Shown here one piece after another: positions 12,865-52,337 of a stretch of 64,000 bases of DNA. The stretch comes from an uncultured Porphyromonadaceae bacterium (GTDB lineage: Bacteria; Bacteroidota; Bacteroidia; Bacteroidales; Muribaculaceae), in NCBI GenBank assembly GCA_947567425.1, contig CANOLV010000014.1, positions 1 to 64,000 of the forward strand, given 5' to 3'. The number at the start of each line of letters is the position of its first letter. Within the stretch, counting starts at the first letter, position 1. The position numbers and the translations under genes are program-made. Under the pieces are notes generated by a model. It saw only the letters and a program-made list of their open reading frames with translations, searched no databases and was not told where the DNA came from.

Positions 12865-13806
12865 CTATTTCTTTTCGTGTTTGAACTTGATGGTTTTCTT
12901 TGTGTTGCGCTTGGGATATTTGACTTTAATTGTCTGTGGATTATCGTAACCTTCAACCACTATACGCAATACGGCCTCTTTCAATGGCTTGCCATCGTCA
13001 TCTTGTAATGCGGGCTCATTATTCCATTGAATGATAAATTTGCCATCAAATGGTATCAAACTAATGTAGTCCGACATTTCGTCACCGTCTTCATCAATCC
13101 AAACCCGTTCGATTTTCCTGACAGAAGTGTTAATTGGAAGGTTATTCTCATTTACAACAATAAGATATAACACATTTTCAAGTTTATCAGTTACCTCAAT
13201 GGGCACGACACCCATAACTGATATTTCACCAAGATAAACTTGCGTAGGAGTTAAAATAATTTCTTCATTTAATGCTTTTGATGTCACGGGGTAGATAAGA
13301 GTTTCATATCCCACATATTTAACTTGCAGGCTATCTCCAACTACGGCCTCTATTCGAAATTTGCCGTCAATATCCGTTGATGTTCCCTGTGCTGTCCGTG
13401 GGTTTATAATTGTAGCCCCTACCATAGGTTCTCTTGATATAGTACCGTCTTGTAAAGTATCTCCAGTGAGGACAACGCCTTTGACTATTATAGTATCGGC
13501 CATTGCCTGAGTTGCTACATATCCTTTTGTCAAAGATGTGTCGGGAGTCTGGGATTGCACGGCAATAGGAGCAAGCATGGCTATTGCTCCTGCCGATAAT
13601 CCGGCAAGCACAACGGCTTTACCCATAAGTTGACGCGCGCGGAGCTGTTGCTCCAAATATCTCACCTCGGCTTCGCATTTGGGGCACGTTCCGAGACAGT
13701 CACCCTTGTAGCGACACTCCGACGTTACAAACTCTATGTCATTCGCCTCGGCTATTTGCCGGCGAATCTCTTTTAATATCTTACAAGTCTGCTTTCCTCG
13801 TGCCAT
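12865..13806 (-). CDS. Membrane protein: Cys-rich N-terminal module plus carboxypeptidase-regulatory-like domain
   Basis: A 313-residue protein of unknown function. Residues 1-60 form a hydrophilic module with Cys8, Cys31, Cys37, Cys41 and Cys44, the last three spaced CxxxCxxC. A hydrophobic segment follows (about 61-81), then a periplasmic part containing a CarboxypepD_reg-like beta-sandwich (about 105-190: VGATIINP, DGKFRIEA, YVGYETLIYPV). The last 110 residues resemble no family I can name. The first 73 residues differ at only two positions from the upstream paralogue at 13810-14685, which carries a TonB C-terminal domain instead. It starts 3 bp after that gene's stop and is surely co-transcribed with it. 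Cytoplasmic Cys module and periplasmic sensor or effector is an inference from topology. Confidence 0.75.
   Translation of the reverse strand: MARGKQTCKILKEIRRQIAEANDIEFVTSECRYKGDCLGTCPKCEAEVRYLEQQLRARQLMGKAVVLAGLSAGAIAMLAPIAVQSQTPDTSLTKGYVATQAMADTIIVKGVVLTGDTLQDGTISREPMVGATIINPRTAQGTSTDIDGKFRIEAVVGDSLQVKYVGYETLIYPVTSKALNEEIILTPTQVYLGEISVMGVVPIEVTDKLENVLYLIVVNENNLPINTSVRKIERVWIDEDGDEMSDYISLIPFDGKFIIQWNNEPALQDDDGKPLKEAVLRIVVEGYDNPQTIKVKYPKRNTKKTIKFKHEKK
13592..13806 (-). repeat. Copy A of a 215-bp coding repeat (Cys-module)
   Basis: It encodes residues 1-72 of the gene ending at 12865. It aligns without gaps to 14471-14685 with about 23 differences counted by eye (near 89% identity). Almost all are synonymous; only two adjacent residues differ. 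Confidence 0.9.
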
Positions 13807-13809
13807 AAC

Positions 13810-14685
13810 TTATTCCGCTTCTTGATCGTCCATAAGGCGAAAACTGATAGGGACAGCCTGCCATACATCAGCGGGTATGCCATCTCTTTCTCCGGGCTTA
13901 AATTTAGGCAGAAGTTGCACAACTCGGATAGCTTCTTTATTAAACTCCTCAGGCAGATTACTTCTTGCAATTTCCGTATTACGAACTTTCCCGGTTTTAT
14001 CAACTAAAAAACGTACTATCACTTTGCCCTGAACGTAATCGCAAGTAGGTGGATATTTCAGGTTTTCGACAAAAAACTGAAACATTGCACTTATTCCGCC
14101 CGGAAATTCTGGTTGAGTTTCTGCGACCTCACCGACCACAGCGTATATCGGCTCTTCCATCTTTTCCGTTGAAGCAGACGCTTCTGCATTTGTGAAAGAT
14201 GCAGGGCATTTTACCGTTTTAGTGGCCGTTGATTCTCGCTCTTGATTAGCCGGTGAAATTGAGATGTCATCTGCAATCCCGATTTCACCTTCTTTTAGCC
14301 CACTACTATCAAACACTGAATTGACCGCTTCAATTTCGCCTTCCTCCTCTTCTTCGCAATCAAGAATCATCGCTCCCTGAAGCAACTCCGTAGGCTCACC
14401 TTGCAGCTTATCACTATCGTCTGTCGTTTGATTTGATAAACTGCCGCAGCCTGAAAATGTAATCATACCGGCCGATAATCCGGCAAGCACAACGGCTTTA
14501 CCCATCAGTTGTCGCTTACAAAGTTGTTGCTCCAGATATCGCACCTCGGCCTCGCATTTCGGACACGTACCGAGGCAGTCACCCTTGTAACGACACTCCG
14601 ACGTTACAAACTCTATGTCATTCGCTTCGGCTATCTGCCGACGAATCTCTTTCAATATCTTGCAGGTCTGCTTCCCTCGTGCCAT
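13810..14685 (-). CDS. Membrane protein: Cys-rich N-terminal module plus TonB C-terminal domain
   Basis: A 291-residue protein. Its N-terminal module (Cys8, Cys31, CxxxCxxC at 37/41/44) and membrane segment (about 61-80, ending in a cysteine, GCGSL) match the downstream gene almost exactly. Residues about 85-185 are a low-complexity acidic linker. Residues about 190-285 are a TonB C-terminal domain: PEFPGGISAMFQFFVENLKYP, then GKVIVRFLVDKTGKV and PKFKPGERDG. In this phylum such proteins are usually annotated as energy transducer TonB, but classical TonB has no Cys module and its N-terminus pairs with ExbBD. Whether this one energises a receptor is open. The upstream neighbours are the unknown protein at 14720-15505 and a radical SAM protein. 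Confidence 0.78.
   Translation of the reverse strand: MARGKQTCKILKEIRRQIAEANDIEFVTSECRYKGDCLGTCPKCEAEVRYLEQQLCKRQLMGKAVVLAGLSAGMITFSGCGSLSNQTTDDSDKLQGEPTELLQGAMILDCEEEEEGEIEAVNSVFDSSGLKEGEIGIADDISISPANQERESTATKTVKCPASFTNAEASASTEKMEEPIYAVVGEVAETQPEFPGGISAMFQFFVENLKYPPTCDYVQGKVIVRFLVDKTGKVRNTEIARSNLPEEFNKEAIRVVQLLPKFKPGERDGIPADVWQAVPISFRLMDDQEAE
14471..14685 (-). repeat. Copy B of a 215-bp coding repeat (Cys-module)
   Basis: This is the partner of 13592-13806 (see there) and encodes the first 72 residues of the TonB-domain protein. The similarity ends abruptly after the membrane segment begins, where the two proteins diverge completely. Confidence 0.9.
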
Positions 14686-14719
14686 AATCAGTGAAATTTA
14701 ATCAAACTAAAAATTGTCC

Positions 14720-15505
14720 TTAATAATCCAATAATAGAGGCACATCCTGCTCAATAGCAAAATTTACGGCCTGATATAGAATGGAGAAAGCACATTGTGC
14801 CAATTCTTCTGTTCTGTATTTATCACCTTGTTTTTTACGAAACAGAAAACCCAGTAGAGGCTTGGATTCTTTTCGATTTACAGGGATATAATATTTATCA
14901 TCCCTCCATGATAGAATCGTCGATTCATCAGCTTTCCATGTCTGACTGTTAAGTTCTTCCAATTCTTGTTTTAGCAATAGAAGTGTAGATACATGAGCTT
15001 CATCTCCGTTCGCCATATTTGTAACAAAGATTGATTCGTTCGGAATCGGTAACCACAGAGTCACATCGGAAAGTAGCGAAACATCACTTGCTTTCGACTT
15101 ACCTTTTTTGACAATAGGATCATCAAAAGCGCACCAACGGTTTTCAACATATTCAGGCAGAGGATAATTTTGCATATGACAAGCAAGAAACATTAACAAC
15201 GCACCGAAAGCCATCCAATCCGGCTTGTCAGTGAAGTAGTCGCGTTCATTTATCTCGTCCCATAACGGATGAGGCATAGGTTCGCCTATTTGTTCTAAAC
15301 CAGCGGCTAATTTTTCTGCCCAATAACATATAATGGCACGAATCTCCATAATCTCCGCGTTATCCTCTACGGGTTTTATTTCATTACCAAGCCCATCTGT
15401 CATTACACATTTTTGGCCATTAGCCTCAGCTATTTGCTGCACCTTGTTTTTCCAATTGTGGCTATAGTATCGGGTCAATGTCCCGGCATAGATATCTAAT
15501 CCCAT
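14720..15505 (-). CDS. Hypothetical protein next to radical SAM gene (begins MGLDIY)
   Basis: A soluble-looking 261-residue protein that I do not recognise as a named family. It begins MGLDIYAGTLTRYYSHNWKN, is rich in Trp and acidic residues, and has no signal peptide or membrane helix. Features that may help comparison: WAEKLAAGLEQIGEP (about 64-78), WMAFGALLMFLACHMQNYP (about 97-115) and ILSWRDDKYYIPVNR (about 200-214). It starts 12 bp after the radical SAM gene and ends 34 bp before the TonB-domain gene, all on the same strand, so it likely belongs to one four-gene operon. It could be a substrate or partner of the radical SAM enzyme; this rests on adjacency only. Confidence 0.7.
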   Translation of the reverse strand: MGLDIYAGTLTRYYSHNWKNKVQQIAEANGQKCVMTDGLGNEIKPVEDNAEIMEIRAIICYWAEKLAAGLEQIGEPMPHPLWDEINERDYFTDKPDWMAFGALLMFLACHMQNYPLPEYVENRWCAFDDPIVKKGKSKASDVSLLSDVTLWLPIPNESIFVTNMANGDEAHVSTLLLLKQELEELNSQTWKADESTILSWRDDKYYIPVNRKESKPLLGFLFRKKQGDKYRTEELAQCAFSILYQAVNFAIEQDVPLLLDY

Positions 15506-15517
15506 GTGAATGTTGTA

Positions 15518-16132
15518 TTAACGTTTATATGTGAATAAATCGAATTTGGAGTATCCAAGTGCGGATAGTGCGTTGCGGCTTTCCTCGCGGGCGGTGTCTG
15601 TATTATAGTCAGGAATAAGCGGTAGCCGTATTATGCAGTCTTTCTGACGGTCAGCTTCGGCAATCAAGCGTAGATTGAACAGCACACGCGAATTATCCCG
15701 ACCTGTGTATTGTCGGTAAATATCCGCGTCCATATCCTTTATGTCGATAATCCAAGAATCTACCAACGGGAGCAGAGCCTCGATATTCTCTTTCGGCACA
15801 TTAAGGGACGTTTCTAATGTCAGCCTCCATGACGGGCCACACAGTTCACGGAAACGGCATATAAAATCAGGACGTAATGCAGGTTCTCCGCCCCCGAAAG
15901 TCACGCCGCCGTTGGTGGCGATGAAATAAAGTTCATCAATCCTGACTTCATCGTATAGTGACTGGGGAGTGTATTCCTTGAAACGGTCACTATCGCCGAG
16001 CGATTGTGGATTCAGGCAGTAATGGCAGCGGAGCGGACAGCTGTGGAAAGCGACAAGCGTGGTTACTCCATCGCCGTCGGTGGAGAGGCGATGACGGGAG
16101 ATGCCAATTATTTTCACTTTTTCACTTACCAT
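15518..16132 (-). CDS. Radical SAM protein, glycyl-radical-activase-like
   Basis: A 204-residue radical SAM enzyme. The cluster motif CPLRCHYC gives Cys32, Cys36 and Cys39 (CxxxCxxC) for the 4Fe-4S cluster. NGGVTFGGGEP (74-84) is the SAM-binding GGE motif, and the stretch SWIIDIKDMDADIYRQYTGR resembles pyruvate formate-lyase activating enzyme. It lacks the extra ferredoxin-type cluster domain of long activases and is shorter than PflA (about 245). No glycyl radical enzyme is adjacent. Instead it heads a group with an unknown protein and two Cys-module membrane proteins. The start ATG follows a good promoter. Confidence 0.88.
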   Translation of the reverse strand: MVSEKVKIIGISRHRLSTDGDGVTTLVAFHSCPLRCHYCLNPQSLGDSDRFKEYTPQSLYDEVRIDELYFIATNGGVTFGGGEPALRPDFICRFRELCGPSWRLTLETSLNVPKENIEALLPLVDSWIIDIKDMDADIYRQYTGRDNSRVLFNLRLIAEADRQKDCIIRLPLIPDYNTDTAREESRNALSALGYSKFDLFTYKR

Positions 16133-16152
16133 TGCATTTGTGCTTCATACAG

Positions 16153-16184
16153 CAAAGCTACTACAAAATACTGACATTCGCAAG
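16153..16184 (-). promoter_or_regulatory. Promoter of the radical SAM / Cys-module cluster
   Basis: The minus strand has CTTG (16181-16184), a 20-base spacer and TAGCTTTG (16153-16160), which is a near-perfect -33/-7 pair. The predicted start point is about 15 bases before the radical SAM ATG. Confidence 0.6.
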
Positions 16185-29402: not shown

Positions 29403-29434
29403 CAAAGTTATTAAAATAGATTCAAACATGCAAA
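29403..29434 (-). promoter_or_regulatory. Promoter of the esterase-FKBP pair
   Basis: The minus strand reads TTTG (29434-29431), 20 bases, TAACTTTG (29410-29403). It is a full match to the Bacteroidetes consensus, placing the start point about 20 bases before the esterase ATG. Confidence 0.8.
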
Positions 29435-38674: not shown

Positions 38675-38706
38675 CAAATATAAATCGCCGGATTGTTAAA
38701 TCCAAA
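38675..38706 (-). promoter_or_regulatory. Promoter of the TonB-domain gene at 38158
   Basis: The minus strand reads TTTG (38706-38703), 20 bases, TATATTTG (38682-38675): a full consensus match. The start codon lies 23 bases further on. Confidence 0.8.
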
Positions 38707-45664: not shown

Positions 45665-45694
45665 CAAAGTTACTAAAAATTTCCATAAAACAAA
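45665..45694 (-). promoter_or_regulatory. Promoter of the DUF177-rpmF-fabH operon
   Basis: The minus strand reads TTTG (45694-45691), an 18-base spacer and TAACTTTG (45672-45665). The start codon lies 26 bases downstream, so the leader is short. Confidence 0.8.
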
Positions 45695-52305: not shown

Positions 52306-52337
52306 TTTGTGATGAAACGTAAATTGTCTTAAATTTG
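52306..52337 (+). promoter_or_regulatory. Promoter of the sdhCAB operon
   Basis: TTTG (52306-52309), 20 bases, TAAATTTG (52330-52337): a full consensus match. The sdhC ATG is 72 bases downstream. Confidence 0.85.

Follow-up and report, generated by a model that had tools for sequence, protein, structure and literature searches.

Which substrate does a PflA-like radical S-adenosylmethionine enzyme (rSAM) act on when no glycyl radical enzyme is encoded nearby? The question is raised by four adjacent genes in a stretch of 64,000 nucleotides (the window; contig CANOLV010000014.1, positions 1 to 64,000) from an uncultured Porphyromonadaceae bacterium placed among the Muribaculaceae (assembly GCA_947567425.1). 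The genes encode the rSAM, a protein beginning MGLDIY and two proteins that open with the same module of about 60 aa with five Cys residues. The core of this locus is two parts, the rSAM and the Cys module, and not four genes. Their pairing is well supported. Computational comparison across genomes finds the pairing, three architectures of the module, a signal-peptide-like segment behind it and a motif enriched in the linkers that follow. The two-part system is real and conserved, is apparently undescribed, and appears to be a form of radical SAM protein or peptide maturation.

Enzyme and module were sought in genomes sampled at several taxonomic depths. At order level, a module profile matched 10 of 324 genomes, and the rSAM subfamily (E <=8.3e-78) is found in exactly the same 10. 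All 10 have the rSAM close to a module gene or in one open frame with the module. Eighteen further genomes of the order matched the rSAM profile only at 3.9e-36 or worse (limit 1e-30). In the phylum sample, module and rSAM both occur in the same 2 of 247 genomes. The family sample has the module in 19 of 59 genomes and an rSAM of at least 290 bits in 18 of these 19; the nineteenth, G053, has only part of an rSAM, close to the end of a contig. The rSAM is near the module in 18 of the 26 family module loci (the G053 piece counted), and the genomes of the remaining eight have an rSAM elsewhere. With only the module as query, named genomes provided a set of 79 distinct loci, the top-ranking of at least 568. 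Some of these are the same contigs as loci from the sampled genomes (L084 and L050, for example), so the two sets are not independent. The rSAM subfamily lies within the fetched flanks of 55 of the 79 and always shares the strand of the module; it is upstream in 49 loci, downstream in the other 6. Two of the 55 copies (L082 and L126) are broken or fragmentary. The number of module genes in a locus ranges from one to seven. An earlier note, made from the sequence of the window, had held that rSAM and Cys module belong together. The counts of 10 in 10 order genomes and 55 in 79 module loci bear this out, and the module is not found mostly without an rSAM neighbour, an outcome that the note had named as adverse to its case.

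Individual loci vary in make-up. Seven consecutive module proteins with differing tails stand behind a single rSAM in L128 (2880-8647). A shortened copy in L046 (4036-4533), in which the first 24 module residues run in frame with a hydrophobic stretch, lies upstream of two full module genes. Cultured Bacteroides are among the carriers, with B. xylanisolvens XB1A (L092) and B. faecis (L098) as examples. Module and rSAM are also found together in L136 and L140, from assemblies that bear the labels Oscillospiraceae and Bacillota; these two loci represent either transfer between phyla or mis-binned contigs. A Segatella copri plasmid, the one record of plasmid carriage, has the order module, module, rSAM; both module proteins are annotated there as 'energy transducer TonB' and the enzyme as 'radical SAM protein'. 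The scan of viral contigs gave six pattern matches, none of them a relative.

In the window the pair is arranged as follows.

16153-16184, minus strand: promoter-like site CTTG-N20-TAGCTTTG ahead of the rSAM gene (consensus match only)
15518-16132, minus strand: PflA-like rSAM, 204 aa (open reading frame (ORF), Pfam and NCBIfam matches, AlphaFold2 model)
14720-15505, minus strand: MGLDIY protein, 261 aa, without credible family match, a rare accessory (ORF, Pfam and NCBIfam scans)
13810-14685, minus strand: module protein 1, with Cys module, lipoprotein-type signal-peptide-like stretch, acidic linker with GE motifs, and TonB_C
14521-14685, minus strand: Cys module of protein 1, residues 1-55, with Cys 8, 31, 37, 41 and 44
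12865-13806, minus strand: module protein 2, with Cys module, signal-peptide-like stretch and CarbopepD_reg-like domain
13642-13806, minus strand: Cys module of protein 2

These ORF coordinates agree with the reading of the earlier note, which had four co-directional genes separated by 12, 34 and 3 bp. Pfam likewise finds the TonB C-terminal and CarboxypepD_reg-like domains that it had named, as TonB_C and CarbopepD_reg_2. The promoter that it placed at 16153-16184 is a promoter-like consensus match. The -33 box of the Bacteroides promoter consensus is TTTG, and the site ahead of the rSAM gene has CTTG instead. Sites of the pattern CTTG-N20-TAGCTTTG number three in the window, against 0.43 expected in shuffles. 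Elsewhere in the window, full promoter-like sites of the type TTTG-N18-21-TAnnTTTG number four (0.52 expected), at 29403-29434, 38675-38706, 45665-45694 and 52306-52337.

The remaining neighbours are not shared in the same way. MGLDIY was rejected as a core part on its rarity: it is present in 3 of 59 family genomes and in 1 of 324 order genomes, the window's own only. Two of its three family genomes (G000 and G034) have it in the rSAM operon. The earlier note had also named a failure of all four genes to co-occur as adverse to its case, and co-occurrence of the four does fail. In a clustering of neighbour ORFs from the fetched loci, the families that recur often are the module proteins, in 96 loci, and the rSAMs, in 65; no protease or transporter family is frequent. 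A conserved third partner was also rejected; every other neighbour family is limited to 18 loci or fewer, and such families seem to reflect lineage context. In L044 (2487-3848) and L047 (6126-7556), a secreted-looking protein of 453-476 aa without a Pfam match lies between rSAM and module gene, the position that MGLDIY has in the window.

The enzyme is most closely related to activases of glycyl radical enzymes. It matches Pfam Radical_SAM at 61.4 bits, its CxxxCxxC cluster site is encoded at 16016-16039, and its AlphaFold2 model has a mean predicted local distance difference test score (pLDDT) of 91.5. The best NCBIfam match is TIGR02494, at 129.3 bits (cut-off 174.35); TIGR02493 gives 94.7 bits, also below its cut-off (231.75). 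The nearest solved structures by sequence are pyruvate formate-lyase (PFL) activases (PDB match E 1.1e-22; 3c8f). Judged by its length and profile positions, the rSAM lacks the ferredoxin-like insert of larger glycyl-radical activases. No glycyl radical enzyme (PF01228) exceeds the 22.2-bit cut-off in the assembly of the window genome, which is 92% complete. The only PF01228 match, below cut-off at 20.9 bits, is a 741-aa frame taken as NrdD because a short rSAM frame adjoins it. The earlier description of a PflA-like rSAM without a glycyl radical enzyme nearby therefore holds for the locus and for the assembly, and a partner of this kind elsewhere in the genome was discarded as an explanation.

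The partner found in its place is a small, strongly conserved module. The common N-terminal module that had been noticed in the two window proteins, with Cys 8, 31, 37, 41 and 44, is 97% identical between them over 73 aa and 88.6% identical at the DNA level. The copies differ by 21 single-base synonymous changes and no single-base non-synonymous change; two adjacent codons with multi-base changes alter the residue. So few protein changes indicate strong constraint on the protein sequence, which argues that the module is translated. Among 26 aligned modules, 12 columns are invariant (G4, C8, L11, R15, N22, C31, C37, G39, T40, C41, C44 and E47). A 12-sequence alignment that includes fused and stand-alone modules has G4, C8, L11, R15, I18, N22, C31, G39, C41, C44, E47 and L51 invariant. 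The AlphaFold2 model (mean pLDDT 77.8, moderate confidence) predicts helices at residues 2-21 and 42-71, with the Cys loop between them and no strand.

No established family accommodates the module. Pfam offers no fitting family: 13 families are matched by any of the 26 modules at E <=10, and SPASM is not among them. In NCBIfam, too, no family fits, with a best resemblance at E 0.04. A match to the SPASM protein ScmF, near its C-terminal end, is non-significant (E 0.04-0.07), and a search of solved structures with the module profile gave nothing convincing. The Cys spacing is, as we take it, reminiscent of RsrA, an anti-sigma factor of the zinc type, a likeness without Pfam support. The zinc anti-sigma (ZAS) reading was rejected: zf-HC2 is absent from the 13 families matched by the 26 modules, and the frequent partner is an rSAM; neighbour ORFs were clustered, and no screen for sigma factors was made. 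From the Cys pattern alone, binding of a metal, as Fe-S cluster or zinc, is plausible.

In most members the module appears to be an N-terminal extension ahead of the signal-peptide-like segment of an exported protein or lipoprotein. The two segments of the window are these.

14446-14505, minus strand: signal-peptide-like stretch of protein 1, residues 61-80, lipobox-like FSGC at residues 77-80 with Cys80
13549-13626, minus strand: signal-peptide-like stretch of protein 2, residues 61-86, ending IAVQSQ

Segments were classified by simple hydropathy and pattern rules, with no trained predictor. In 166 module proteins (2 from the window), the hydrophobic stretch next to the module is lipobox-like in 82, AxA-like in 61, otherwise hydrophobic in 20 and absent in 3. 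The corresponding numbers for the 161 distinct proteins are 80, 60, 18 and 3, so that 140 of the 161 have a site. One of the three proteins without a stretch is a fragment starting inside its gene. If the segment is cleaved, the module would stay in the cytosol and be cut off with it. The earlier note had spoken of a membrane helix. A hydrophobic stretch is indeed present; a lasting membrane anchor is not borne out, and a signal peptide is the better reading (140/161). With a stretch of this apparently cleavable kind behind it, the module is unlikely in most proteins to be a cytosolic sensor fixed to a permanent anchor. The domains behind it are diverse. Whole Pfam scans of seven module proteins found CarbopepD_reg_2 in three, TonB_C in one, TonB_C below cut-off in one, a serpin domain with HIRAN in one and nothing in one. 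The module also occurs without a membrane segment, standing alone, fused to the rSAM or on soluble-looking proteins.

The linkers behind the signal-peptide-like segment are enriched in a glycine motif, [LVI]-x-G-[DE]-[VI]. The figures given here are from non-redundant sets; a first count, of 124 proteins, had kept relatives in. An unbiased count of three-position patterns in 94 non-redundant post-signal linkers ranks L.G.[VI] (41 linkers, 5.0 when shuffled) and L.G[DE] (46 against 6.7) first. A stricter set of 67 non-redundant linkers was selected by length and pattern, with the aim of leaving domains out. In these the pattern [LVIMF].G[DE][VIMLP] is found 61 times, spread over 41 linkers, where shuffles average 4.9 matches, and four permuted controls (A, S or N in place of G; reversed order) are at or below chance. 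The motif rate is 9.2 per 1000 residues, compared with 0.73 in other ORFs of the same loci, which are mechanical ORFs and in some cases not genes. When linkers are aligned in pairs, 90 of 135 motif Gly residues are conserved, compared with 166 of 400 other linker Gly. Two whole module proteins without the hydrophobic segment have the motif as well, a serpin-domain protein (L065) and a 140-aa peptide (L057). The former (L065, 6036-7865) combines a serpin domain with a C-terminal HIRAN domain and has LMGDI between module and serpin, with no hydrophobic stretch. The window's own two linkers lie outside the 94- and 67-linker sets; their candidate sites are listed below.

14392-14406, minus strand: candidate target motif LQGEP, protein 1
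14332-14346, minus strand: candidate target motif EEGEI, a weaker form, protein 1
14281-14295, minus strand: candidate target motif KEGEI, a weaker form, protein 1
14125-14139, minus strand: candidate target motif VVGEV, protein 1
13222-13236, minus strand: candidate motif YLGEI, protein 2, at the end of the CarbopepD_reg-like domain

Rearranged forms of the pair bear on the roles of module and motif. Two genomes of the order sample, from one family, have rSAM and module in one frame. Nine genomes of this fusion family yielded six rSAMs (those two included), and all six have a C-terminal module. The five Cys are kept in the six fusions, one of them shifted by a residue. Behind each fusion rSAM, at a distance of no more than 33 bp, lies an ORF that encodes a peptide of 61-92 aa. 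These peptides have diverged, keeping the start MLI, and on inspection have no module and no signal peptide. Near the end, their alignment has an invariant L58-x-G60 set in the context LxG[DE][IL]; the peptide of L163, for example, has 74 aa and contains ALVGDI. Behind each small peptide comes a further ORF, and the one of these that was scanned matches TonB-dependent receptors in Pfam. The fusion family thus moves the module to the enzyme and leaves the motif on a separate neighbour, which is the main reason for reading the motif as target and the module as docking or helper domain.

Stand-alone modules, of 88 and 79 aa, lie beside the rSAM in L157 and L158. In these loci (L157, 8443-15233; L158, 2440-9245) rSAM and module are flanked on one side by a 1250-aa Sel1/LRR (leucine-rich repeat) protein together with a DUF1848 protein, and on the other by a DUF3800 protein. 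The DUF3800 protein matches the PADLOC candidate PDC-S51 (proteins of L157 scanned). L157 also has a relaxase gene close by, and its rSAM weakly matches pVip models (24.6 bits). The rSAM-module pair may here have been taken into a mobile, defence-like cassette.

A two-part maturation system is proposed, in which the module docks or assists the rSAM and the rSAM modifies the linker glycine motif before export. Its chances of being right are about even. The steps would be as follows. (i) In most members, the window pair included, the module would head the target protein ahead of the signal peptide. (ii) The rSAM would bind the module in the cytosol; the module would bring the enzyme to its target or complete the active site of the enzyme. 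(iii) One or more of the acidic-glycine motifs in the following linker would be modified by the rSAM. (iv) Sec would export the modified protein, and the module would be lost with the signal peptide. (v) In the fusion family, the module would have moved onto the enzyme, with the motif on a small peptide from the next gene. We infer from the computed patterns that the motif is the substrate, that modification precedes export and that the module binds metal. PFL activase abstracts the glycine alpha-hydrogen in a V-S-G-Y frame. Because the rSAM is kin to PFL activase and the Leu-x-Gly frame is similar, hydrogen abstraction at the glycine alpha-carbon may serve as a first guess at the chemistry; epimerisation of the following Val or Ile, or a change at the acidic residue, is a possible alternative. 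A broader claim would be that a detachable five-Cys docking domain in front of signal peptides lets one PflA-type enzyme mark many exported lipoproteins, with TonB_C, carboxypeptidase-regulatory and other domains, at LxG[DE][VI] glycines, the split fusion form included. The mark would be a post-translational one, made by radical chemistry, on envelope proteins of gut Bacteroidales. This claim is tentative, at somewhat below even chances.

Several observations weigh against the proposal that the rSAM modifies linker glycines. G052 has an rSAM of 219 bits and no module in the 15-kb stretch read, and 24 of the 79 module loci have no rSAM in the fetched flanks; 10 of these 24 extend less than 3 kb on one side, and 14 do not have this shortage. 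The acid of the motif is kept exactly in 69 of 135 cases, little better than other acids (914 of 2148). A control pattern, G[KR][VIPLM], is also above chance in the 94-linker count (27 against 16.5), and 15 of the 67 linkers are without even the relaxed motif. The linkers may share distant ancestry that shuffles do not remove, which could inflate the enrichment. Proteins of the Segatella copri plasmid have only loose or other forms (VTGDT, LEGAI and LGEVV), and the only motif of window protein 2, YLGEI, is perhaps part of the CarbopepD_reg fold. In L157 and L158 no conserved target with the motif was found; one of their DUF1848 proteins has LFGDI, which is missing from the other.

Three other explanations were weighed against this one. 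The module itself could be the rSAM substrate, modified in its G39-x-C41-x-x-C44 loop (as a thioether or radical site, for example), with the tails as unrelated cargo. PFL-type activases act on glycine. The residues G39, C41 and C44 are invariant in the 26 modules and kept in fused and stand-alone forms, and a stand-alone module beside the rSAM, seen in two loci, would suit a substrate. This reading is nevertheless unlikely, as it leaves unexplained both the linker motif and the separate motif-bearing peptide next to the fusion enzyme. The earlier note had favoured a redox or metal sensing or maturation system. Its link between rSAM and module stands, on co-occurrence, and no positive evidence was found for a sensing or energy role of the periplasmic domains. 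If the module sensed redox state or metal in the cytosol, on proteins anchored in the membrane, with periplasmic domains passing on signal or energy and the rSAM as regulator or maturase, this would account for the five invariant Cys and for the TonB_C domain; with an uncut signal peptide, the TonB_C protein could lie across the membrane. This view is rather improbable: a lipobox-like or AxA-like end follows the hydrophobic stretch in 140 of 161 module proteins by the rough rules used, modules also occur on soluble-looking proteins, on the enzyme and alone, and the domains behind the module differ among the seven proteins scanned whole.

The module might instead be only an auxiliary Fe-S or electron-transfer domain, with the true substrate elsewhere and the motif serving export or an outer-membrane partner. 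Some rSAMs have C-terminal auxiliary-cluster domains, which the fused form resembles, and the weak, non-significant ScmF match is of the same tendency. A cofactor domain would hardly be expected, however, on as many as seven different exported proteins behind a single enzyme, and the motif is also found on peptides without a signal peptide. This explanation is accordingly regarded as very improbable.

If the proposed modification of linker glycines is true, the marking of exported proteins by an rSAM would be a further level of surface tailoring in gut Bacteroidales, and a class of 'orphan' PFL-type activases would gain a substrate. The fusion enzyme with its small peptide would be a minimal form of the system. 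Annotation would be affected as well, as the label on the Segatella copri plasmid proteins illustrates. No matching description of the rSAM-module pair was found in the literature searched, in Pfam or in NCBIfam. The main text of a study of Bacteroidales mining for ribosomally synthesized and post-translationally modified peptides (RiPPs) has no occurrence of TonB, lipoprotein or glycyl (PMC10352776).

One close parallel is with rSAM-RiPP systems. These also have adjacent genes for a maturase and a putative target, which here co-occur in 10 of 10 order genomes. They resemble the present system further in a conserved N-terminal part with a variable remainder, in often having several targets per enzyme, and in the small peptides, found here in the fusion family. 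The putative 'leader' of the present system differs: it is a helical module with five Cys, and the signal peptide behind it is of the Sec or lipoprotein type. The putative targets, among those inspected, are mostly proteins of 130-450 aa, and there is no frequent protease or transporter neighbour. The RiPP recognition element, a winged helix, is described in the RiPP-mining paper as three helices and three strands (PMC10352776); the AlphaFold2 model of the module has two helices and no strand. SPASM/Twitch rSAMs differ in their domain, no SPASM domain being recognisable in the 26 modules scanned against Pfam. TIGR04134 (lipo_with_rSAM) is a lipoprotein family named for an rSAM partner, as could be said of the module proteins; that partner is presumably TIGR04133. 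The window proteins do not match TIGR04134. The window genome gave no match either, nor did any control genome, so absence is not shown. The Bacteroidota label 'energy transducer TonB' is carried by the Segatella copri plasmid module proteins, and window protein 1 likewise has TonB_C. This label takes no account of the module, of the signal-peptide-like segment or of the rSAM, and some module proteins have no TonB_C match. Activases of glycyl radical enzymes are the nearest family in sequence, and the window rSAM shares with them the radical SAM family match and CxxxCxxC. It differs in falling under both curated cut-offs (TIGR02494 and TIGR02493) and, by its length, in being without the ferredoxin-like insert. 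No PFL-type glycyl radical enzyme exceeds the cut-off in the assembly of the window genome, and the partner of the window rSAM is the Cys module. A substrate glycine in a Val/Leu-x-Gly frame, as at the PFL site, is perhaps common to both.

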